A stretch of 61,448 nt of DNA from Burkholderiales bacterium (GTDB lineage: Bacteria; Pseudomonadota; Gammaproteobacteria; Burkholderiales; Burkholderiaceae_C): assembly GCA_003963005.1 (NCBI GenBank), contig RXJW01000031.1:1-61448 (forward strand). Reading direction: 5' to 3'. A model generated the notes under the pieces. That model was not told the origin of the DNA, made no database searches, and worked only from the letters and a program-made list of their open reading frames with translations. The position numbers and the translations under genes are program-made. Shown in pieces: positions 1,933-12,225 of this stretch. The first letter of the stretch is position 1; each line of letters starts with the position of its first letter.

Positions 1933-3273
1933 ATGCGCAACCCACCCGAGCGATATCTCCAGACGCTGCGCGAGCACTTCGCTCAAGCCCCGCAGTGGTT
2001 CAACTCGGGCAGCAACAGTGAACAGGTGGCGTTTAAGCCCGCCACCGGCGCAGCGCTCACCACCTACCAGGACGGTAAGGACACAGCATTCCAGCGCTGG
2101 TTCCACTTCAAGGAAGCCTTCTCCCCCGAGTTCGTCAGTGCGGCGATCGCCTCACTGGGCTACCGGCCTACGCACGTATGTGACCCATTCGGAGGCTCTG
2201 GTACGAGCGCCATCACCTCGCAGCTGCTGTCGATCAACGCGACCACGGTCGAAGTGAACCCGTTCCTTGCGGACGTGATCAAGGCCAAGGTTAGCCCTCT
2301 GACGGCTGAGAAGCTGTTGTCCGCAGCGGCCGACTTTCACGCGGGACTGCAGGACACGCCGGCCGACCTGTCGCGCCTGGCCCACCTGCCGGCGACATTC
2401 ATCGAGGGCGAAGGAAAGGACCGATGGATCTTTCCGCATGATGTGGCCTGTCGGATTTCGCAGTACCTCGCCTGCATCGACGCAATGCAGGATGCCGATG
2501 TCCAGAGGTATTTCCGCGTCGCGCTGGGCGCCGTGCTCATCGACTGCAGCAACGTGTATGTCAATGGCAAAGGGCGGCGGTACCGCGGCGCCTGGCAATC
2601 GAACCAGCCAACCGCAGAGAAGCTCGACTTGCTTTTCAGCCAGCAGTTCAACACCTCCTTCGAGGACGTTCTGCGGTTTGAGCGCCGGCCTCGTTCGCGC
2701 GTTACGGTGATCAATGGCGATTCACGCACAGCGCTTCAGCAGGTGGATCAACAGGCCGACTTGATAGTTTTTTCGCCGCCCTACCCCAACTCCTTCGACT
2801 ACACTGACATCTACAACGTCGAGTTGTGGGTGCTGGGCTACATCGGCTCGTCGGCCGACAACCTCACGCTGCGCAACCAGACGCTGCGTTCCCACGTGCA
2901 GATCCGCCGGGCGTATGACGGGCCCGCAACGACGTCGAGCACGCTCAATGCTGTGCTGGACGCCTTGGCCAGTCGCCGCGAGTCGCTTTGGGACGCAACG
3001 ATTCCTGAGATGGTCGGAGCGTACTTCCGCGATCTGGAGCTGGTGCTTGAACAGAGCCACCGCCTGCTGGCACAGACGGGCCGCGTCATGATGGTGGTTG
3101 GCGACTCCCGCTATGCCGACGTGCGCATCGAGGTCGCCACCATCCTGGCAGAGCTGGCACGAGGGATGGGCTTCGGCCGCGTTTCAACGCGTGAGGTGCG
3201 CCAGATGCGCGCCAGCGCCCAGCAAGGCGGCAGCTTCCAACTGGCCGAAAGCATCGTCGAACTCACGCTTTGA
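1933..3273 (+). CDS. Site-specific DNA methyltransferase (N4/N6 amino type)
   Basis: The 446-aa protein has the S-adenosylmethionine motif CDPFGGSGTSA at residues 83-93 and the amino-methyltransferase catalytic motif SPPY (with IVF before it) near residue 281. SPPY is typical of N4-cytosine and some N6-adenine enzymes. The order is cofactor motif first and catalytic motif second with about 190 residues between, whereas most SPPY enzymes have SPPY near the N-terminus and DPFxGSG near the C-terminus. The gene faces a PD-(D/E)XK-like gene whose end overlaps its own by 11 bp, so the pair may be a restriction-modification or related defence unit. The modified sequence cannot be predicted. Confidence 0.82.
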   Translation: MRNPPERYLQTLREHFAQAPQWFNSGSNSEQVAFKPATGAALTTYQDGKDTAFQRWFHFKEAFSPEFVSAAIASLGYRPTHVCDPFGGSGTSAITSQLLSINATTVEVNPFLADVIKAKVSPLTAEKLLSAAADFHAGLQDTPADLSRLAHLPATFIEGEGKDRWIFPHDVACRISQYLACIDAMQDADVQRYFRVALGAVLIDCSNVYVNGKGRRYRGAWQSNQPTAEKLDLLFSQQFNTSFEDVLRFERRPRSRVTVINGDSRTALQQVDQQADLIVFSPPYPNSFDYTDIYNVELWVLGYIGSSADNLTLRNQTLRSHVQIRRAYDGPATTSSTLNAVLDALASRRESLWDATIPEMVGAYFRDLELVLEQSHRLLAQTGRVMMVVGDSRYADVRIEVATILAELARGMGFGRVSTREVRQMRASAQQGGSFQLAESIVELTL

Positions 3274-4357
3274 CCGGCGGCGTTCCGGATGGCATCAGCG
3301 GATACCGGTCCGCTCTGTGTTCCTCGTGTGAGGCGGTGATCCAGTAGCGGCTGGCCTTCACGTTGTAGGGTGCGGCGGCATGCTGGATCGCCTGCTCGAT
3401 CTGCGGCTTCTTCCCGGCACAGAAATCGTAGACACACAGGTATGCAGCGTCTAGGCGCTCGTCATCGCGGTATGCGGCGGTTTGGGCCACGCCGGACTGT
3501 GCCCAGTCGATATTCGATTTCAGGCTGATGCGCGTGGCTCTCACGGTCCCCGGCCTCGGGGTCCGGAAGTCTCGCGTCACCTTCAGCTCCAGAACGGCAC
3601 TCGCATGGTCCGGCTTGATGGGAGTGACCGTGATGTCAGCCCGCCCGTGACCGATCGTCGTCTCCTTCTTGACGCGAGCGACATCCGAGAACTTCCCAAG
3701 CAAGAAGTTCCACAGGTCGTGCTGCACCACGCTTTCGGGCTCCTCGACGGTGATTCGCTGCGATCTATCCCGCCACCATTCCTCCGGCTGGCGGGCCGCA
3801 CGCTCATAGAACGCTTCCAGGCTGCGGTCCAACGCGGCCAGGTCGAGCACCACCGGCGCGTCACCAAGCTCCTTGAGAAATGGCGCGGACTTGGAGTCCA
3901 AACCCCGCGGCCATATGACCATCGAGGCTTCGCTGAGCAAGGCGACGGTCAGTGACTTGCCCAACCCAGCTTCACGGATCGCAGCCGTCATTGCGTCGGT
4001 ATCGGGCAGGCGGACGGGCTTGGCGTACCCTCCGATCTCACCGGTGCCGACCGCCAGAGTGCCGGCCAAAGGCTCAGCGTGCGAGCCGCCCAGCATCGGT
4101 TTGCTTAACCAGGCGAGCCCAACGCCGACGTCGGCGCAGTCTTCTGCATAGATAACCGCGACAGGTGCGGACAACGTTTCGCCTTTGCCTCGCAGGTGAC
4201 GGGCGTGCGCCGTCAGAGTCCTCGTCCAGGCGTCCAGGAAGGCTTCTTCTGTTCCTGCATCGGCAATCGACAGCCCAGCCGCACCGTTCTCGACGACGGC
4301 GTCCAAGGCGGCCTTCACCGCGCCACCCAACGGGTTCATGGTGCCGCCCCCCGTCAT
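3263..4357 (-). CDS. PD-(D/E)XK nuclease-like protein, possible restriction partner
   Basis: Near residues 237-260 the sequence reads GHGRADITVTP and then AVLELKV, giving D241 and E257-x-K259, the signature of a PD-(D/E)XK nuclease core. The N-terminal 200 residues (TGEIGGYAKPVRLPD, then MVIWPRGL) match no family I know. The ATG at 4357 overlaps the stop of the upstream truncated gene as ATGA, so the two were translationally coupled; an internal ATG at 4339 is an alternative start. The 3' end overlaps the convergent methyltransferase by 11 bp. Cleavage of unmethylated DNA is an inference from fold and neighbours only. Confidence 0.65.
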   Translation of the reverse strand: MTGGGTMNPLGGAVKAALDAVVENGAAGLSIADAGTEEAFLDAWTRTLTAHARHLRGKGETLSAPVAVIYAEDCADVGVGLAWLSKPMLGGSHAEPLAGTLAVGTGEIGGYAKPVRLPDTDAMTAAIREAGLGKSLTVALLSEASMVIWPRGLDSKSAPFLKELGDAPVVLDLAALDRSLEAFYERAARQPEEWWRDRSQRITVEEPESVVQHDLWNFLLGKFSDVARVKKETTIGHGRADITVTPIKPDHASAVLELKVTRDFRTPRPGTVRATRISLKSNIDWAQSGVAQTAAYRDDERLDAAYLCVYDFCAGKKPQIEQAIQHAAAPYNVKASRYWITASHEEHRADRYPLMPSGTPPVKA

Positions 4358-4448: not shown

Positions 4449-4486
4449 GGGGTGATCTCGGTTTCAGTGCATAGATTGGGGTTAGC
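4449..4486 (+). repeat. Left terminal repeat of a Tn3-family element
   Basis: The sequence beginning GGGGTGATCTCGGTTTCAGT has the GGGG start of Tn3-family ends and lies 144 bp upstream of the transposase, reading inward. It interrupts a small open frame. The first 16 bases recur at 13831 in the same orientation. The 38-bp length given is the usual family length, not measured here, since no partner repeat in inverted orientation was found. Confidence 0.6.
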
Positions 4487-4592: not shown

Positions 4593-7544
4593 TTGCCCGG
4601 TTTCCACCTACGGTTCGTTGGCCGAGACGTCCTGCCCAAAAGCCTGTCGGCACGCGACGTCGAGGAATCGTTCGGCCTGAGTGCCGACGATCTGCACGAG
4701 CTCAAGCACGGCTTTCGCGGTAACGCCCGAATCGGCGCGGCCTATCAGCTGGTCATGTTGCGCGCGACGGGCCGCGCGCCGGACGCCCTCACCGGCATCC
4801 CGAAGGCTCTGCTGGCCTACATGACATCGGCGATGGGCATGAGGCCCACTGACATCGCTTCGCTGGCTTCTCTGTACAAGGACGCGCACACCAGCGGCCA
4901 GCACAAGCAGTGGGCGCGGGAGCGGGCGGGCTTCAGCATCGTCGACGAAAAGTCCCAGGCGGCCTTGCTCGAATCAATGCATCAGCTCTCCTCGACCGCG
5001 ATCTCGGTCGACGACCTGGTCAAACAAGGCGAGCTGTGGCTCTTTGCCCGGCGCAACGTGCTCCCCTCCGACCGGACGCTTAGGGACCTGGCCAGGCAAG
5101 CCTTTGCTGCTCAGGAAGCCGCTGCAATCAAGGCCATCCTCGACGGCGTACCTGCCAGCAACCGCAACACCGCCATCCGTGACCTATTCTCCAAGCGCCC
5201 AGGGCCAGGCAGCGTGACCGTCCTCGAATGGCTGCGCACGCCGCCCGGCAAGCACGGTCGTGCCACGTTGAAGGAGATCATCGAGAAGATCCAGTGCATC
5301 AAGAAGTGGGATGCCGAGCACTGGAAGCTTCAGACCATTCCCCTGACGCGTCTACGGGCCTACAGCCAGGAGGTCGTGGGTCGCGCGCCATCGGACACCA
5401 AACGCCTCAGTGAGCAGCAGCAGGCGCTGCAGCTGTGCGCGTTCATCTACATCACGCTGCTTGACCTCAACGACCTGGCGACCGACGTCGGCGGCCGTTG
5501 CGTCAACGATCTCAACCGCAAGGCCTCGGGACGAGTGATGCAAAAGCAGGCCGGCTCTGCCATCGATCTCAGGGCCGAGCGTGTGAAGCTGAAGTCCATC
5601 CTCCACGACACCAAGCTCAAGGACAAAGAAATCGTCGCCGCGCTGCGCGAGCTGCTCCCCAAGGACGAGCCTGACTTCTCCGGCACGCGTGCGTCCATGA
5701 TCCGCGAGTCGCTGGTCAACGACGACGCGCCACGCGTGACGGCGCTGCTCAACTCGCTATCCATCCTCGACATCCGTGGCGCTGAGGACGAGAAGGCAAT
5801 GCAGCAGCTCAACACCTTGCGCAGCTTGGCTGACAAAGGTGCCACGACGCTGCCCGACGACTTCGACATGTCGATGACGGACCCGTCGTGGCACAACCTT
5901 CTCGGCGATCCCGACCGCAAGAAGGCTCTGGCCGCCCTCAAGGCCTGCGCGATGAACACCATCCGCAAGGCCATCAACGGCGGCAAGCTGTGGATCGCCC
6001 ACAGCACCAAACACCAGGACAAGGAGCAGCAGTTGATCCCGCCGAAAGAGTGGGAAGCGAACTCCAAGGCGCTGATCCGCGCGCTGAGCCTCACGGATGA
6101 CCCCGACAAGTACCTCGAGCGGGTCCTGAAGAAGGTCGACGAATGCATCCGGCAGCTCTGCGAGGCCGTCAAGAACGGCCTGGTCACCATCGACAACAAG
6201 GGCGAGATGCACATCGACCCGATCCAGGCGCTGGAGGTCGAGCCCGAAGTCACCCACACGCGCGACGCCCTCTTCAACATCATCGGCGCCCGGCAGTACG
6301 CGGAGATGCTGGTCGAGATCGACGCCAAGACTGGACTGAGCGAAGCACTGCTGGGGCGCCGTGCCAAGAACCTGGACGAACTCAAGGCGCTATATGGCGC
6401 CTTGTTTGCCCACGGCACCGAGAACACTGCCAAGGGTGTCTGCGCCATGATCCCCGGCCTGCAGGTGTCTCAGATCACCAGCGCCATGCGTGCCATGGAA
6501 GCGCAGGGCCGGCTTCGTGACGCCAACAACCGCGTCATCGAGTTCCAGCAGTCCATCCCGATCGCTTCGCTCTGGGGCTCAGGCGAGAAGGCCTCGGCCG
6601 ACGCGATGACGATCGACACGTCGCGCCACCTGCACAGCGCCCGTGTGGAGCACCGGCGCAAGACGCATGGTGTTGGCATCTATGTCCACATGAGCGACAC
6701 CTGGAGCCTGTTCTACGACCAGCCCATCGTGCTCAATGACCGTCAGGCCGGCAGCGCGGTACACGGCGTCGAGGCATACAACGTCTCCCGCCGCGAGGAC
6801 CAGATCCGACTGCAGCTTCTGGCCGTTGACACCCACGGCTACACCAACGCGGCGATGAGCATCGCCAAGCTGCTCGGCTTTGACCTGTGCGTCCGGCTGC
6901 AGCGTCTGTCCGAGCGCAAGATCTACCTGCCGTGGGGCGCCCAGGTGCCCGAGGACCTGGAGCGGCTGCAGATCGGCAAGGCGTCGCTCAAGAAAATCCG
7001 TGAAGGATGGGACGGCCTGCTGCGCCTGATCGCCTCCATCCGCCAGGGCAAGCTGACCGCGCGCGATGCGCTCGCCCGTCTTGGCAGCGCCGCCAAGGGA
7101 GACCCGGTGCACGCGGCCGCCGACGAACTGGGGAAGCTGCTGCGCACCATCTTCCTGTGCGACTACTTCACCAATCCTGACTTCCGGCGGGAGATGCACG
7201 CTCTGCTCAACCGGGGTGAGTCTGTCCACTTCCTGCAGCGCGCGGTTTATCACGGCAGGGTCGGCGTCACCCGTGCCCGGCGCAGCGACGAACTCATGGC
7301 CATCTCGGGCGCGCACACGCTCCTCACCAACGTGGTCATCGCCTGGAACACGATGAAGATGCAGGAAGTGGTCGACTTTTGGCGGATGAAGAAGCACCCC
7401 ATCGAGGACAACTGGATCAGGCGCATGGGGCCCGTGCATTTCGAGCACATCAACTTCCGCGGGATCATTTCGTTCAACTTCGACGCCTTCGAGGACACGC
7501 TGCTGAACAAGCAGTCCAAGAAGCGCGCCCACGCCGCTGCTTGA
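4593..7544 (+). CDS. tnpA: Tn3-family transposase TnpA
   Basis: The 983-aa protein carries out replicative transposition of the surrounding element. The DDE residues are all present: D670 (SADAMTID), D746 (DTHGYTN) and E876 (NRGESVHFLQRA). Their spacings of 76 and 130 residues agree with those I recall for Tn3 TnpA. The length is within the family's 950-1010 range. Translation starts at a TTG at 4593 with AAGGAGA five bases upstream. The terminal repeat at 4449 looks closer to the IS1071 group than to Tn21, but this is by eye. No resolvase of the serine type is present; the tyrosine recombinase at 12244-13221 could serve as cointegrate resolution enzyme. The frame is intact, so the enzyme may be active. 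Confidence 0.96.
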   Translation: MPGFHLRFVGRDVLPKSLSARDVEESFGLSADDLHELKHGFRGNARIGAAYQLVMLRATGRAPDALTGIPKALLAYMTSAMGMRPTDIASLASLYKDAHTSGQHKQWARERAGFSIVDEKSQAALLESMHQLSSTAISVDDLVKQGELWLFARRNVLPSDRTLRDLARQAFAAQEAAAIKAILDGVPASNRNTAIRDLFSKRPGPGSVTVLEWLRTPPGKHGRATLKEIIEKIQCIKKWDAEHWKLQTIPLTRLRAYSQEVVGRAPSDTKRLSEQQQALQLCAFIYITLLDLNDLATDVGGRCVNDLNRKASGRVMQKQAGSAIDLRAERVKLKSILHDTKLKDKEIVAALRELLPKDEPDFSGTRASMIRESLVNDDAPRVTALLNSLSILDIRGAEDEKAMQQLNTLRSLADKGATTLPDDFDMSMTDPSWHNLLGDPDRKKALAALKACAMNTIRKAINGGKLWIAHSTKHQDKEQQLIPPKEWEANSKALIRALSLTDDPDKYLERVLKKVDECIRQLCEAVKNGLVTIDNKGEMHIDPIQALEVEPEVTHTRDALFNIIGARQYAEMLVEIDAKTGLSEALLGRRAKNLDELKALYGALFAHGTENTAKGVCAMIPGLQVSQITSAMRAMEAQGRLRDANNRVIEFQQSIPIASLWGSGEKASADAMTIDTSRHLHSARVEHRRKTHGVGIYVHMSDTWSLFYDQPIVLNDRQAGSAVHGVEAYNVSRREDQIRLQLLAVDTHGYTNAAMSIAKLLGFDLCVRLQRLSERKIYLPWGAQVPEDLERLQIGKASLKKIREGWDGLLRLIASIRQGKLTARDALARLGSAAKGDPVHAAADELGKLLRTIFLCDYFTNPDFRREMHALLNRGESVHFLQRAVYHGRVGVTRARRSDELMAISGAHTLLTNVVIAWNTMKMQEVVDFWRMKKHPIEDNWIRRMGPVHFEHINFRGIISFNFDAFEDTLLNKQSKKRAHAAA

Positions 7545-7557
7545 TGACGGTTCGCCC

Positions 7558-8034
7558 ATGCAACACGCCACGGTGACATCCAGCCTGACCCAACAGGCGT
7601 TTGACTTCTTCTTCTGGTTCTCTCGGTTCGAGGCGGCCTTGAAGGAGGATGGCTACTTGAAGAACGAGCAACCCAACTCGGTGGCCCTGCCAGGGTGGGA
7701 CCAGTTTGTTGCGAAGTGGGCACCGCATTACCATCCCTCGGCGCACGCCACCCTGCTGATCTCGCTGGCACCAGCGCGGCAGATGGTGGGCGCCAACAAG
7801 AGCCTCACCTGGGGCGCTACGCCCGTGGCGCCAGGCGCCTCGCAGCTGGCGACGGTCGTTGCGATGCTCAAGACGGTCCGCAACAACCTCTTCCACGGCG
7901 GGAAGCACGGCTCAGCCGATTGGGACAACCCGAAGCGCACCGGCGAACTGCTGGACGCTGCTCGTCCCATCCTGGACGAATTGGCCGAGTTGGCCGGTCC
8001 TGGCTTTGCATCCGACTTTCAGCAGATCTACTGA
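7558..8034 (+). CDS. HEPN-like small protein with R-x4-H motif
   Basis: This 158-aa alpha-helical protein starts 13 bp after tnpA on the same strand. It contains VRNNLFHGG, giving R108-x4-H113, the catalytic signature of HEPN ribonucleases, preceded by a helix rich in Leu, Val and Ala as in that fold. The N-terminus (QQAFDFFFWFSRFEAAL) resembles the first helix of HEPN/Apea-like proteins. HEPN proteins are often toxins or RNA-cutting effectors of defence systems. No nucleotidyltransferase antitoxin lies beside it. The close spacing to tnpA suggests shared transcription and transposon cargo status. RNase activity is inference. Confidence 0.6.
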   Translation: MQHATVTSSLTQQAFDFFFWFSRFEAALKEDGYLKNEQPNSVALPGWDQFVAKWAPHYHPSAHATLLISLAPARQMVGANKSLTWGATPVAPGASQLATVVAMLKTVRNNLFHGGKHGSADWDNPKRTGELLDAARPILDELAELAGPGFASDFQQIY

Positions 8035-8223
8035 TATTCAGCGGGTTCGCCGTCAGCTGGACCACGCGGCGGTTGGCGCGCTTTGAGCCCGCGGACTTCT
8101 TGAAGCACCAGATCTCGTGTTGGCGCGCTGCTGCAGCAGGCGGTCGCGTTAGCGGCGATCATCGCGTGGCGCGCTCCGGAAATGGAGCGCAGCAGTTCAT
8201 GCAGCAATCCCAGGGAGGGCTTG

Positions 8224-9075
8224 ATGGTGAAGCAGCGGTTTGTCCTGCCAGTCGACCCGGACCCGTGTCCCGATCTGATGATCGAGCGCGGTCCCAAAGG
8301 CACAGGCGTTGGGAGGTGGGTTCCTGACGACAAGCACACCTTGCTGGCCAAGTGGCTGGGCGGGACACGTCAGGCACGCGTCAAGTGGCCCCAGCGCATC
8401 TTCATCGACCCCTTCTGTGGTCCTGGCAGGTTGCAAGTCGAGGGCGAGACCTTCACTCGCGACGGCGGTGCATTGGTCGCGTGGCGTCAGTCCCAGGCAC
8501 ACGCGGTGCCCTTCACACACATCGAGCCTGAGCGGACCGCCGCGTGTGCCACGCGCCTTCGCGCGCTCAACGCGCCGGTTCAGGAGTTCACTGGCCCGGC
8601 CGCCGAGACAGCGCCCAAGATGGCGGCCGCCGTGCCGTCGGGCGCGCTGGTGCTGGCCTACATCGACCCCTACAACCTGTCGTACCTCGGCTTCGACATC
8701 CTGAAGGCGCTGGCCAAGCTGCCCAAGGTTGACCTGCTGGTGCACTTCAGCACCATGGACCTGCAGCGCAACGTCGACATCGCGCTGGACGATGCCCGTG
8801 CCCGCTTTGACGACGCCGCACCGGGCTGGCGTGACCACATTGATCACGCCCAGTTGGCCAAGGTCGGCCTGAGGGAGGGCTTCTTCAACTACTGGCTCAG
8901 TGCGGTCAAGGGGCTCGACTTCACGTCCGCCCGCCACATGCCGCTGATCCGTGGCGACCGCAACGCGCCGTTGTACCGGCTGGTCGAGTTCAGCCGGCAT
9001 CCGCTGGCCAACAAGATCTGGGACGACATCGCCAAACCGGCCAACCTGGAGCTGTTTCCAGAGACCGATGGCTGA
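8224..9075 (+). CDS. tcmP: Three-Cys-motif partner protein TcmP
   Basis: The 283-aa protein has the features of the TcmP family: an early LLAKWLGG segment, an acidic glycine-rich loop D62-PFCGPG, and a second acidic strand AYIDPYN (D148), laid out like a Rossmann methyltransferase-type fold. TcmP proteins are defined by their linkage to proteins with a three-cysteine motif, and exactly such a gene (DUF5131) lies convergent 9 bp away. The biochemical role of the pair is not established. The ATG at 8224 is chosen over 8182 because GGGAGGG lies seven bases upstream. Likely cargo of the Tn3 element. Confidence 0.8.
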   Translation: MVKQRFVLPVDPDPCPDLMIERGPKGTGVGRWVPDDKHTLLAKWLGGTRQARVKWPQRIFIDPFCGPGRLQVEGETFTRDGGALVAWRQSQAHAVPFTHIEPERTAACATRLRALNAPVQEFTGPAAETAPKMAAAVPSGALVLAYIDPYNLSYLGFDILKALAKLPKVDLLVHFSTMDLQRNVDIALDDARARFDDAAPGWRDHIDHAQLAKVGLREGFFNYWLSAVKGLDFTSARHMPLIRGDRNAPLYRLVEFSRHPLANKIWDDIAKPANLELFPETDG

Positions 9076-9084
9076 GCGTCGATG

Positions 9085-9831
9085 TCAGGCGGCAACGGTC
9101 GCCGGCATTTCGTCCCAGGTGCGGCCCAGCAGCTCGCGGCCGTTGGCATGTTTGGAGCGCTTCTTGCCATCAGCGCCCCAGCCGCCCCATTGCTTGAAGA
9201 AGAAGGCCACCCGTTGTGCCTCGCACTGCCGACGCACGTTCTCGACCCAGGCCGGGTCCATGGGACGGGCCTTGGCACCCGACTCACCGCCGACGATCAC
9301 CCAATGGATGTCGGTCAGATCCAGCTCGCCAACGTCCTCAAGCAAGGGCTCCACGGACAGGAAGCGAATGCGCGCCGGCACCTTTCTCAGGTGGTCGATG
9401 CGCGGCACGCCATGCTTGCGGTTCTCCACCGACACGCCCATCCACGCGTTGGGTGGAACCGCGTGCCCTTGGGCGAAATAGTGCGCCATGCGCTCAGCCC
9501 GCTTGGTGAGGATCTGGTACGTGTGCTGCGGCGTGCGCGCCACGACATCTAGAACCTGGCCGATGTACTCGTCGGGGACCTTTTCGTGGAACAGGTCGGA
9601 CATCGAGTTCAGGAAGTACGTGGTCGGCTTGCTGCGCTTGAGCGGGTCGCCCAGGCGATTCGGCAGCAGCGTGAGCCTGAAGCCGTTCTCATAGCCTGGC
9701 GCGCCCATGGCTTTCAGGCGCCGCGCCATCGTCTCGGCATAGCAGTTCTTGCAGCCGGGCGAGATCTTGGTGCACCCCACCACGGGGTTCCAGGTCTGCT
9801 CGGTCCACTCGATGCGGCTGATGGTGGTCAT
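9085..9831 (-). CDS. DUF5131 / phage Gp37-Gp68 family three-Cys-motif protein
   Basis: The 248-aa protein opens with IEWTEQTWNPVVGC, the hallmark of the Gp37/Gp68 (DUF5131) family, followed by three cysteines C20-x6-C27-x2-C30 (GCTKISPGCKNC). This recalls a radical-SAM iron-sulfur motif with a widened first gap; later segments (RFLSVEPLLE, VIVGGESG, FFFKQWGG) are also family landmarks. The function is not proven; nucleic-acid modification is a reasonable guess. It is translationally coupled to the SprT-like gene upstream (stop and start overlap as ATGA) and converges on tcmP, its known genomic partner. Confidence 0.85.
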   Translation of the reverse strand: MTTISRIEWTEQTWNPVVGCTKISPGCKNCYAETMARRLKAMGAPGYENGFRLTLLPNRLGDPLKRSKPTTYFLNSMSDLFHEKVPDEYIGQVLDVVARTPQHTYQILTKRAERMAHYFAQGHAVPPNAWMGVSVENRKHGVPRIDHLRKVPARIRFLSVEPLLEDVGELDLTDIHWVIVGGESGAKARPMDPAWVENVRRQCEAQRVAFFFKQWGGWGADGKKRSKHANGRELLGRTWDEMPATVAA

Positions 9832-10640
9832 GGGCGACTCCGTGGGCGGGATAGCGGGGAGCGCGGCCTGGCGCGGCCGACAGCGTCTGCCGGCGCCAGT
9901 TCGCGAGATTCGGGGGTTTCAGGAACAAGTTCAAGCCCGCATTCCAGGCATGCCAGGCGCAACGCCGGTTTGCCCCATGCGTTCACGCGGCAGCCCGGGC
10001 AGCTGTACTTGTCGCGGTTGCTGCGGTTGACCGCCGTGGCAGGGTGAACGCGCGGCACGATCTGCACGCCTTCTGAGGCCGGTATCGCCAGGGCGCTGGC
10101 GGTGATCGGCCCGACGGCCGCCGACGTGGCAACCGGGTGCAGCGGCTTCTCCGGCGTGAAGCGATCGAACCAGGTGATGCCGAAGCTGTGCTGGCCTACC
10201 AGCTCGTCGACGGCCTTCGCGAACGGTCCGCCGGGAACGATGTAGTCGGCCATGACGTCGCCCACGCGCCGGCCGCCTGGCTCGCCGGTGTGCGATGGCA
10301 TCAAACCGATCGATTCCATCTTGGCTGCCCACTCGGCGTTGTGGTACCTGACGCGGCCCGGCGTGCCGTGGTGCGCCTGCCAAAGGTGAACCATCTCATG
10401 GGCGATGGTCTGCAAGGTCTCGATGACCGGCACGACGGCGAAATACTCCGGGTTCAGCGCGATCTCGTCCGTCGTGTCGCCTCGCCGTGTGCCGAAGCGC
10501 CCAGCGCTGAAGTAGCCGTAGGTGCGCTTCTCCCGCTGCAGCGTCAGGAGGCAAGGTGGCAACCTGCCTTCGAACAACCTGTCGTTGAAGAAGTCAAAGG
10601 CCCGACGCAGTTCGTCATAGGTCGTGGCGGTCGGCTCCAT
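9828..10640 (-). CDS. SprT-like zinc metalloprotease
   Basis: The 270-aa protein has an SprT-type peptidase domain: TIAHEMVHLWQ gives H81-E82-x2-H85, and a later histidine in RYHNAEW supplies the third ligand. A C-terminal zinc ribbon follows (CPGC, then CLEC). The family includes eukaryotic Spartan, which degrades DNA-protein crosslinks; bacterial members on mobile DNA have unknown targets. Start is taken at 10640 (MEPTATTYDELRR), since the upstream in-frame extension overlaps a dnaN-like segment on the other strand and has low-complexity content. Its last codon overlaps the DUF5131 start, so the two form an operon read leftward. Confidence 0.78.
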   Translation of the reverse strand: MEPTATTYDELRRAFDFFNDRLFEGRLPPCLLTLQREKRTYGYFSAGRFGTRRGDTTDEIALNPEYFAVVPVIETLQTIAHEMVHLWQAHHGTPGRVRYHNAEWAAKMESIGLMPSHTGEPGGRRVGDVMADYIVPGGPFAKAVDELVGQHSFGITWFDRFTPEKPLHPVATSAAVGPITASALAIPASEGVQIVPRVHPATAVNRSNRDKYSCPGCRVNAWGKPALRLACLECGLELVPETPESRELAPADAVGRARPRSPLSRPRSRP

Positions 10641-10811
10641 GTCTGGATTGTGCAATCCAGTCGTTGGAAATCGCCAGCCTCTTGTGGCGCAACAGCGACT
10701 CATGCCGAGGCGCGCTCCCTGGGAGTGGCGCCCTGCTGTTGGCGCGGAGCGCAGCGGCGACCGCGATTTGGCATAATCGAACTTAACGAACTTGCCAAAC
10801 GAAAGGGTCGC

Positions 10812-11144
10812 ATGATCGTCCTTAAGGCTCCCCAAGACCAAGTGCTGGGCGCGCTGCAAGCCGTGTCGGGCATCGTCGAGAGACGGCACACACTGCCCAT
10901 CCTGGCCAACATCCTGGGTCGTGGTCGTGACCTCAGGTACCTCTACGACGACTACATCGAAATGCGTCGCGCCCGGCTCACTGCGACGCGACTTCTCCAA
11001 GCCATGCCGCTGCTGCAGCCTGAGCCTGTGCGTCCTCCCTCCAAGTCCGCACCAGCAGCGCGCCACGGGCTGTCCCTGCGCCGCGTTCGCAAGTTGCGTG
11101 GTTTCTTCAGCGCGTCGAAGGTCAACGCGCGTAACGCGCCCTGA
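10812..11144 (+). pseudogene. dnaN: Truncated dnaN leader fused to unrelated sequence
   Basis: The first 35 codons encode MIVLKAPQDQVLGALQAVSG and then IVERRHTLPILANIL, unmistakably the N-terminus of the DNA polymerase III beta clamp as found in betaproteobacteria. After ILANIL similarity stops, and about 75 codons of unrelated, arginine-rich sequence run to a stop at 11144. An AAAGGG ribosome site and a CATAAT (-10-like, 10772-10777) lie upstream, so the fragment could carry its own expression signals. It ends 19 bp before the antitoxin gene. A functional clamp cannot be made from it. Confidence 0.72.
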
Positions 11145-11163: not shown

Positions 11164-11634
11164 ATGAAGACCGCGACCACCACACCAACTTCCGCACGAA
11201 GCTCGGCACGCGCCAACCGTGTCCCCCAGCGCCCATCCCCTTATGTCTCTGCAGCTCAGACACGTTCCCTGCTTGCCGGCAGCCTGGCAGCCCGGACGGA
11301 GCGACTGCAGGCGGGCGACATGGTGACCACGGAGCAGGCGGCCGAGCTCGCAAGCACCACACGCGTGACCATCAACGCCTGGATCGCCAAGGGTCGAGCC
11401 ATAGGGCTCACCCAGACCCGCCGCGGCTTTCGGATGCCCAGCTGGCAGTTCGAACCTGGAATCTGGGACGCGATCCCCGCCATCGCCAAGGCCCTGGGAA
11501 CCAGCGAAGGCTGGGCCCTCCTGTCGTTCCTTGAGACGCCACTGGGCGGCCTCAACGGCAGGACCCCAAGGCAGGCGATCGAACAAGGCGATTCGACACG
11601 GGTGCTCGAGCTTGCATCGGCGGAGGGCACCTGA
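11164..11634 (+). CDS. Xre/MbcA-ParS-type antitoxin
   Basis: This 156-aa protein pairs with the RES-domain toxin 9 bp downstream. Its middle has a helix-turn-helix (TTEQAAELASTTRVTINAWI) for promoter binding and neutralising. The C-terminus has the MbcA/ParS-like toxin-binding pattern (FLETPLGGLNGRTPRQAIE followed by VLELA). The first 50 residues are low-complexity, rich in Ser, Ala, Thr and Arg, so translation could also begin later. RES/Xre pairs are usually autoregulated by the complex. Position next to a recombinase suggests it stabilises the mobile element. Confidence 0.78.
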   Translation: MKTATTTPTSARSSARANRVPQRPSPYVSAAQTRSLLAGSLAARTERLQAGDMVTTEQAAELASTTRVTINAWIAKGRAIGLTQTRRGFRMPSWQFEPGIWDAIPAIAKALGTSEGWALLSFLETPLGGLNGRTPRQAIEQGDSTRVLELASAEGT

Positions 11635-11643
11635 TCGACACGC

Positions 11644-12225
11644 ATGAAGCTCGCCGACCTCGAATTCGCACCCAGCTTTGATCTCCCCGCACCTTCTGCT
11701 CTGTTTCGGATCCAACGCATCCGCGCACGTCGTGGTTCCATCCGCGTCGGGCGCGTCCTGCTGCCGCCTACCCACCTGCTGAGCGGCCGATTCGACATCG
11801 TCGGTGTTCCGGTGGGCTACTTCGCCGAAGCCCCCGAGACGGCGGTCTACGAGTCGCTCTGCCGTCGGGAAGCCACCGCGGTCTCGCTGCAAGCAGCCTC
11901 TCAGCGTGCGCTGCTTTGCGCGCAGACCACCTGGCCTTTGACACTGCTGGATCTGCGCATGCATGCCAGCACCTGGCCCGTCCTGCAGTCCCTGCGGCTC
12001 AGCCACACGCAAGAACTCGCCGCGCAAGCCCACGCGCTAGGCTACGCCGGCATCGTCTACTGCTCGGCGCAACAACACGGCATGCACTGCTACGCGATCT
12101 TTGGTGAAGCACTGTCTGGCCTTCGTGCTGTGTGGTCGGAGCGCTTGACTGAGCCAGGGACTGGCAACTTGCACGGTGTGTTGGCCGGCGCCTTGCGAGG
12201 CTCTCAGGTGCCCTTGGTCCCTTGA
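11644..12225 (+). CDS. RES-domain toxin
   Basis: The 193-aa protein shows RES family landmarks: LFRIQRIRA near the N-terminus, the GRFDIVGVPVGYFAEAPETA core containing the conserved Arg, Tyr and Glu elements, and a C-terminal QAHALGYAGIVYCS block. Known RES toxins degrade NAD+ (or ADP-ribosylate), halting growth when the antitoxin is lost. It is directly downstream of its Xre antitoxin with 9 bp between. The length is typical. No frame defect is seen. Confidence 0.85.
   Translation: MKLADLEFAPSFDLPAPSALFRIQRIRARRGSIRVGRVLLPPTHLLSGRFDIVGVPVGYFAEAPETAVYESLCRREATAVSLQAASQRALLCAQTTWPLTLLDLRMHASTWPVLQSLRLSHTQELAAQAHALGYAGIVYCSAQQHGMHCYAIFGEALSGLRAVWSERLTEPGTGNLHGVLAGALRGSQVPLVP

Follow-up and report, generated by a model that had tools for sequence, protein, structure and literature searches.

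A TcmP, DUF5131 and SprT gene unit marked by a palindrome and its possible part in mobile-element conflict

Directly downstream of a Tn3-family transposase gene (tnpA) in a Burkholderiales bacterium lie genes for a HEPN-like protein, the methyltransferase TcmP, a DUF5131 protein and an SprT-like metalloprotease. Do these neighbours form a unit, and on what might such a unit act? We addressed this question for a DNA stretch of 61,448 nucleotides (contig RXJW01000031.1 of assembly GCA_003963005.1, hereafter the window), for which the original prediction had proposed a four-gene defence or DNA-modification system carried by a Tn3 element. Our analysis confines the unit to TcmP, DUF5131 and SprT and to a 16-bp palindrome that stands where SprT begins. 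This unit most likely processes or modifies DNA in mobile-element conflicts.

Recurrence of the three-gene unit and its palindrome

The limits of the unit emerge from a 2.5-kb block that shares 81% DNA identity with Pelomonas sp. Root1444, which the kinship table assigns to the genus of the window's own genome (blastn of the window against locus L080, which lies on the same contig as L100; L-, G- and C-numbers denote compared loci, genomes and contigs). Since this block is conserved without the HEPN-like open reading frame (ORF) or tnpA, both of which lie outside it, the unit consists of TcmP, DUF5131 and SprT. All four predicted ORFs exist at the positions originally given, the identities of TcmP, DUF5131 and SprT are upheld by matches above curated profile cut-offs, and both predicted gene contacts were seen: 9 bp separate the stop codons of the convergent TcmP and DUF5131 genes, and SprT and DUF5131 overlap as ATGA.

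The association of SprT with DUF5131 recurs beyond this locus. We compared 80 SprT loci, the best 80 of 195 relatives in named genomes, several of which end at contig ends; totals of 81 include the window. DUF5131 lay near SprT in 13 of the 80 loci (fetched flanks up to 8 kb) and within 1.5 kb in 11 of 81, and was the most recurrent SprT neighbour (10/81 loci within 1.2 kb). With the 200 family genomes taken at ~4 Mb each and holding about 33 DUF5131 rows, a rough, inferred estimate leads us to expect fewer than 0.1 of 81 loci with DUF5131 within about 1.5 kb by chance; since both genes are mobile, however, the fair background would be mobile cargo. On the SprT tree, the label for DUF5131 within 1.5 kb required 5 changes, of which starred branches force 3, against a mean of 10.5 for shuffled labels, none of 500 shuffles being as low as 5; these counts take gains and losses together. 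The two genes are co-directional in L100, L106, L110, L119, L127 and L171, as well as in L178 at about 2.5 kb, and divergent in L117, L125, L158 and L164. The 4-bp overlap is shared by the window and Root1444. Within 200 genomes of the family, SprT is present in 10 and DUF5131 in 27, and the two are adjacent in three (the window's genome, G156 and G029); a fourth genome, G148, has a broken piece of SprT at a distance of about 4.6 kb from DUF5131. One divergent locus, L164, is recorded as a Cytophagales metagenome-assembled genome; its contig lies within G029, of the window's own family, and is probably mislabelled or mis-binned.

SprT is nevertheless a minority partner of DUF5131, TcmP being the commoner one. 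Of the 13 SprT-DUF5131 loci, 7 have a TcmP no more than 3 kb away from DUF5131, and 3 more have a D12 DNA methyltransferase there; a TcmP is equally close to DUF5131 in 13/29 family-level loci, 23/80 viral loci (best 80) and 5/5 plasmid loci, three of which were located via TcmP itself. A phylum-wide sample of 398 genomes, 41 of them with DUF5131, provided 18 DUF5131 loci and two SprT loci that were read, and TcmP adjoins DUF5131 in 13 of the 18. The convergent order seen in the window is found in L090, L100, L106, L110, L164, L280, L281, L284, L285 and L286. Hence, the original prediction of linkage beyond this locus holds for SprT with DUF5131 and TcmP, which recur as a unit, and is not supported for the HEPN-like gene. 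A Burkholderia glumae plasmid (L005) carries DUF5131 and two TcmP genes adjoining imuA and genes for a DNA polymerase Y and an error-prone DNA polymerase, and the window's genome itself possesses a second, distant DUF5131 gene (G000:C25 5541-6467; L079, L279).

We found no TcmP at L117, L125 and L158, where DUF5131 has a D12 DNA methyltransferase next to it. By PADLOC profiles, this methylase and a second gene are PD-Lambda-5 B and A. These scans, made with PADLOC and Pfam, covered 83 of 100 listed neighbours at 11 loci, the other 17 having been judged likely spurious by eye; no control set was included and no enrichment is claimed. Either TcmP has been replaced here by a true DNA methylase, or SprT-DUF5131 adjoins a defence system. 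Taking the replacement as proof that TcmP methylates DNA is weakened by the match of the D12 genes to PD-Lambda-5_B. A C5-methylase flag in L127 was doubtful and was left out of the counts.

The start of SprT, in genes of plasmids and of integrative and conjugative elements too, is marked by a 16-bp palindrome, TGKATTGYRCAATMCA. The 80 SprT loci, 1.05 Mb in all, contain 70 sites, spread over 54 of them; reversing the sequence left no site, and a further 96 DUF5131 loci that do not belong to the SprT set (1.08 Mb) contain none either. Around the SprT profile start, from 200 bp before it to 30 bp after it, a perfect palindrome stands in 50 of 81 loci and one with at most 2 mismatches in 63 of 81, compared with ~2% of 1620 control intervals placed at random within these loci, some of them overlapping the palindrome site itself. 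The arms agree in 57 of the 59 best sites and in 66 of all 70. The 18 loci of 81 in which none with up to 2 mismatches was found include the sphingomonad loci L126, L136, L137, L142, L143 and L145. Within the 6.24-Mb assembly of the window's genome (99.47% complete), the palindrome occurs at one location, in perfect form, where it marks both the SprT start and the end of the Root1444-conserved block; in L125 and L164 it occupies the space between the divergent SprT and DUF5131 genes.

An IncN plasmid that was read closely holds four palindromes, one before SprT and three in frame within an ORF before stbB; this ORF, annotated as hypothetical, is by its position probably stbA. Because three of the four copies are intragenic, the idea of a plain promoter operator is weakened. 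The palindrome is best read, from its pattern, as a putative protein-binding site, perhaps both operator and partition-like. It is present in 2 of 80 viral SprT loci. A search of viral contigs with two exact forms of the palindrome gave 46 stretches, of which 3 stand directly before an SprT gene (L447 holds one too) and 10 precede one recurring small phage ORF family. The form TGGATTGCACAATCCA is placed 68-87 bp before the small phage ORF in L455, L456, L457, L459, L463, L467, L471, L475, L476 and L477.

Folds and families of the three proteins

The DUF5131 protein matches PF07505 with 368.6 bits (gathering cut-off 28.9) and TIGR04471, radical SAM (S-adenosylmethionine) mobile pair protein A, with E 4.7e-29 and 101 bits, under the cut-off of 355. 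The predicted C-x6-C-x2-C motif is indeed present, as C20/C27/C30, and its three cysteines are invariant across 57 DUF5131 rows. A model built from this 57-row alignment reached a pLDDT (predicted local distance difference test) of 94.5, and its top six Foldseek matches in the PDB were all spore photoproduct lyase (E 5.9e-4 to 2.1e-3). Lipoyl synthase ranked after these, followed by viperin with unrelated TIM barrels such as galactanase close behind; only 3 matches fell within E 0.001. Query template modelling (TM) scores were 0.47-0.55. By its model, which is confident while the TM scores are modest, DUF5131 would be a radical-SAM-like barrel nearest to spore photoproduct lyase, and the TIGR04471 match agrees with such a fold, though below cut-off. 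Spore photoproduct lyase is thus the closest solved fold, from which DUF5131 differs in its cysteine spacing and in sharing 12-15% identity. The canonical radical SAM motif is CX3CX2C, from which the spacing in DUF5131 departs. Searches by sequence returned no significant PDB relative for DUF5131, TcmP or SprT. DUF5131 is common in viral contigs, with at least 594 confirmed candidates.

TcmP matches TIGR04474 with 133.1 bits (cut-off 53). Its start is more likely at 8224 than at 8182, judging by a Shine-Dalgarno-like AGGGAGGG upstream of the former. We modelled the intact TcmP of Root1444 (the L100 relative; 24-row alignment, pLDDT 86.5), and a fold search gave 282 PDB matches at E <= 0.001. 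By this model TcmP has a class I SAM-methyltransferase fold, which indicates class and not substrate. RlmJ is a 23S rRNA N6-adenine methyltransferase; of the 50 folds listed, it had the top query TM score (6qe5, 0.56), but it shares 9% identity with TcmP, and the lowest E-values went to small-molecule methyltransferases instead. The window's own TcmP has a five-residue gap that is absent in 9 and 23 other aligned rows (overlapping sets). The gap corresponds to residues 100-104 of the Root1444 relative, in which the model places strand beta-2 at 99-104, so that the methyltransferase core of the window protein lacks most of this strand. The loss of these five residues may impair the window copy; intact copies are found among its relatives. 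In PADLOC, two scanned TcmP relatives match PDC-M30A, and one of them PDC-M41A too. A back-translated pattern returned no TcmP loci in viral contigs, a miss of the method, since viral DUF5131 loci do adjoin TcmP. In Sinorhizobium meliloti, an expression table lists a TcmP gene (SMa2243/SMa2245) after the anti-phage gene hna (PMC12445080).

The SprT protein matches PF10263 with 44.2 bits (cut-off 25.6), and its HExxH motif, third histidine and C-terminal CxxC..CxxC (zinc ribbon) are all invariant in 8 rows. Its start is the ATG at 10640, internal to a longer listed ORF. Relatives are found on conjugative plasmids in 2189 of 2615 matching plasmid records, and the family is carried mainly by conjugative plasmids. 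Thus, a role in plasmid establishment or anti-restriction is at least as well indicated as defence. SprT adjoins stbB and stbC in the two IncN plasmids read, and other cargo, such as propionate and arsenic genes, comes after SprT in plasmids.

Features and adjoining genes

The features of the locus are collected in Table 1. The window contains no tRNA genes, and its first 20 kb no Rfam families.

Table 1. Features of the TcmP-DUF5131-SprT locus in window coordinates, with the basis of each assignment.
Feature	Position	Strand	Basis or remark
TcmP	8224-9075 (longer start 8182 possible)	+	TIGR04474, alignments, relative's model
DUF5131 (phage Gp37/Gp68 family)	9085-9831	-	PF07505, TIGR04471, model, Foldseek
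SprT-like metalloprotease	9828-10640	-	PF10263, alignment, plasmid matches
16-bp palindrome TGGATTGTGCAATCCA	10644-10659	no strand	at SprT start; single copy of pattern in assembly
Conserved block TcmP + DUF5131 + SprT + palindrome	8148-10659	no strand	blastn vs Pelomonas sp. Root1444
HEPN-like ORF	7558-8034	+	R-x4-H motif; adjoining gene, outside unit
Tn3-family transposase	4593-7544	+	tblastn; adjoining gene

The HEPN label of the original prediction survives as a motif assignment. R-x4-H is present, no match was found in Pfam or NCBIfam (E 0.001) or in PADLOC at the limits used, and the sole profile match is PHROG 19013, of unknown function. Of the 200 family genomes searched, the window's own is the only one with a match to this gene. 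Matches exist in 29 plasmid records; the three neighbourhoods read among these hold AbiH, RES, SNF2 and others, and no TcmP, DUF5131 or SprT. Lying outside the conserved block and having no linked relatives in the other family genomes or in the three plasmid neighbourhoods read, the HEPN-like gene was rejected as a member of the unit.

TnpA is about 50% identical to an IS882-type Tn3 transposase (tblastn). A Tn3-like left end, GGGGTTAGCG, stands at 4478, and its best partner in the window agrees in 22/38 bases. No convincing inverted pair emerged from find_repeats or from an all-pairs comparison of 38-mers in the first 20 kb; the latter gave none of at least 28 matches with arms more than 2 kb apart, and its three pairs with 27 matches do not have the appearance of transposon ends. 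In IS882 itself (L361) the inverted repeats enclose little beyond tnpA; no such pair above threshold was found in L360. The proposed carriage by a Tn3 element is therefore not supported, a degenerate or missing right end being possible. Both the HEPN-like gene and TnpA look incidental, as chance neighbours of TcmP-DUF5131-SprT.

Several other features lie nearby. A possible restriction-modification (RM) pair at 1933-4357 comprises a type II-like DNA methyltransferase (PADLOC MTase_II, E 2e-46) and an overlapping convergent ORF of unknown family with a weak LmuA match. A RES-domain protein (PF08808) and its upstream ORF at 11164-12225 are what we take to be, likely, a RES-Xre toxin-antitoxin pair. 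A fragment at 10765-10916 resembles a dnaN start, while the remaining ORF looks unlike DnaN; elsewhere in this genome, a stretch of C203 is 84% identical to the fragment and one of C81 is 88% identical to part of it. The ORF at 105-755 has a 35% identical relative at L098 3091-4428, adjoining an S24-DUF5131-TcmP locus. The Root1444 module (L100) adjoins a heavy-metal ATPase-like gene (labelled by eye), and related DNA is found at 25.7-36.8 kb of the window, about 15 kb from the module.

Interpretation and comparison with known systems

The computations show the organisation of the locus, the linkage, the palindrome pattern and the fold classes; what goes beyond them is inferred. Taken together, the organisation of the locus allows a tentative model that we favour while holding it short of probable: TcmP, DUF5131 and SprT would form an operon-like mobile unit for mobile-element conflict, in which the palindrome controls SprT and DNA is protected via base chemistry. 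The overlapping SprT and DUF5131 genes would be co-transcribed, with TcmP running towards both, and the palindrome at their start probably binds a protein. On entry of the element into a naive cell, SprT, an ArdC/Spartan-like protease, would be derepressed, giving zygotic expression, and may strip proteins off the element DNA. DUF5131 and TcmP may afterwards modify or restore bases chemically, so that the DNA of the element, or that of the host against a rival element, would be protected.

Several observations weigh against this model. As many as 189 of 226 SprT neighbour clusters are confined to a single locus; SprT occurs at none of the 18 phylum-wide DUF5131 loci, DUF5131 at neither of the two SprT loci read from that sample, and neither DUF5131 nor TcmP in any of 80 viral SprT loci. 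At L091, L097, L098 and L099, an S24 LexA/UmuD-like gene stands in SprT's place just upstream of DUF5131, with a long TcmP downstream (and an additional convergent TcmP in L091), which suggests SOS. The three in-frame palindromes inside the IncN ORF before stbB are not accounted for by a plain promoter operator. Furthermore, the anti-restriction activity of ArdC did not require its protease activity (PMC7213743).

How do other explanations fare? The diversity of the SprT-side region makes a cargo hot spot possible, and the association might then be a coincidence in which SprT marks a site of integration or cargo in plasmids and integrative and conjugative elements (ICEs), and TcmP-DUF5131 lands there as other cargo. 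Both genes are mobile, the tree label could be due to few gains, and the propionate and arsenic genes after SprT and the single-locus majority of its neighbour clusters fit such an account. We nonetheless consider coincidence unlikely, given the 4-bp overlap in both the window and Root1444, the occurrence of DUF5131 on either side of SprT, the palindrome between the divergent genes of L125 and L164, and the absence of any other SprT neighbour that recurs as often. The unit may also be decaying in this genome, a quite conceivable outcome that nevertheless does not reach the probable: TcmP has lost most of a core strand relative to its intact relative, and the region, with a partial dnaN-like start nearby, resembles a patchwork of fragments. 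Yet DUF5131 and SprT have retained the residues conserved among their relatives, and the palindrome contains no mismatch.

Among functional alternatives, anti-phage defence proper would make TcmP-DUF5131 a modification-based or abortive pair of the PDC-M41 or PDC-M30 type, with SprT as an added effector. DUF5131 matches PDC-M30B with 369 bits and PDC-M41B with 366 bits, and, of the two TcmP relatives scanned, both match PDC-M30A and one also PDC-M41A. Three SprT-DUF5131 loci abut the PD-Lambda-5 pair, which in experiments reduced phage plating and was reported to affect plating or plaque size for all but one phage tested (PMC9519451), and 68.8% of 32 Pseudomonas aeruginosa strains with predicted PDC-M30 were phage-resistant (PMC10855318). 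However, the PDC classes rest on 'guilt-by-embedding' and are not experimentally validated according to the same source (PMC10855318), the window TcmP matches PDC-M41A just at E 2e-4 over 46 residues, DUF5131 is itself abundant in viral contigs, and SprT is a plasmid-family gene; we therefore hold defence proper to be somewhat unlikely. A mobile, damage-induced repair kit, in which DUF5131 would act on a lesion or modified base in the manner of spore photoproduct lyase, SprT on DNA-protein crosslinks and TcmP on bases, strikes us as rather unlikely. It is in keeping with the six best Foldseek matches, with the S24 genes that 5 of 29 family loci have no more than 3 kb away from DUF5131 (as a 4-bp overlap in L097 and L098) and with the polymerase genes of the B. 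glumae plasmid. The few matches within the E-value limit, the unrelated TIM barrels close behind them, the cysteine spacing and the lack of an S24 gene in SprT's place in the window speak against it. Hence, we favour mobile-element conflict, comprising establishment or anti-restriction together with defence, over anti-phage defence proper, and the latter over SOS-linked repair. For the role originally proposed, the folds do suit enzymes acting on DNA or RNA, and defence stays a candidate only.

It is tempting to speculate that mobile-element conflict involves an undescribed three-enzyme DNA-processing system, in which SprT and a photoproduct-lyase-like radical SAM enzyme, joined by an 'SprT box' and accompanied by TcmP, would act on DNA that enters the cell or is damaged. 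An element-encoded factor would recognise the box, possibly StbA-like or SprT-autoregulated, common to many conjugative plasmids and ICEs. We regard this extended proposal as quite improbable. TcmP and DUF5131 are widespread families without an assigned function, and their folds offer testable chemistry, namely methyl transfer and photoproduct-lyase-like radical chemistry. Two features, the recurrent tie to a protease of conjugative plasmids and the palindrome, which is single and precise, provide a handle on when the system switches on. If mobile-element conflict is the true context, the unit would join DNA-protein-crosslink proteolysis to base chemistry.

TcmP-DUF5131-type pairs are already known, since PADLOC lists them as unvalidated defence candidates. 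The text of the literature searched makes no mention of DUF5131 or of PDC-M41, mentions PDC-M30 for P. aeruginosa and, among the papers listed, refers to TcmP as this protein only incidentally. New are the variant with SprT, the assignment of folds and the palindrome, none of which appears in the literature passages compared (no search was aimed at the palindrome sequence). The two families of the PDC-M41/PDC-M30 pair are adjacent in the window as they are elsewhere, with convergent or co-directional pairs recurring in bacteria and viral contigs. The window differs from such pairs in having SprT where several close relatives have an S24 gene, and in possessing one TcmP only, short and damaged and hardly matching PDC-M41A; of the PDC-M41 components, B gives a strong match and A a weak one. 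PD-Lambda-5 is described as resembling a compacted RM and abortive infection (Abi) system (PMC9519451). It adjoins SprT-DUF5131 in three loci by profile, and differs in that its D12 methylase occupies the place expected of TcmP and in that neither PD-Lambda-5 A nor B is among the matches listed for the 10 window proteins scanned.

The closest parallel to SprT is ArdC of plasmid R388, which counters restriction and whose metalloprotease domain is Spartan-like (PMC7213743). In R388, StbA and ArdK repress the ardC promoter, and ardC is among the genes with increased transcript levels just after conjugation (PMC3937220). Both are Spartan-like metalloproteases of conjugative plasmids; ArdC belongs to the establishment part and is co-repressed with stb, and the IncN SprT adjoins stbB and stbC. 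In contrast to ArdC, the window SprT lacks the N-terminal single-stranded-DNA-binding domain by Pfam, which gives SprT-like only (E 0.001), and the StbA repeats of R388, TTGCATCAT (PMC3098194), differ from the SprT palindrome.

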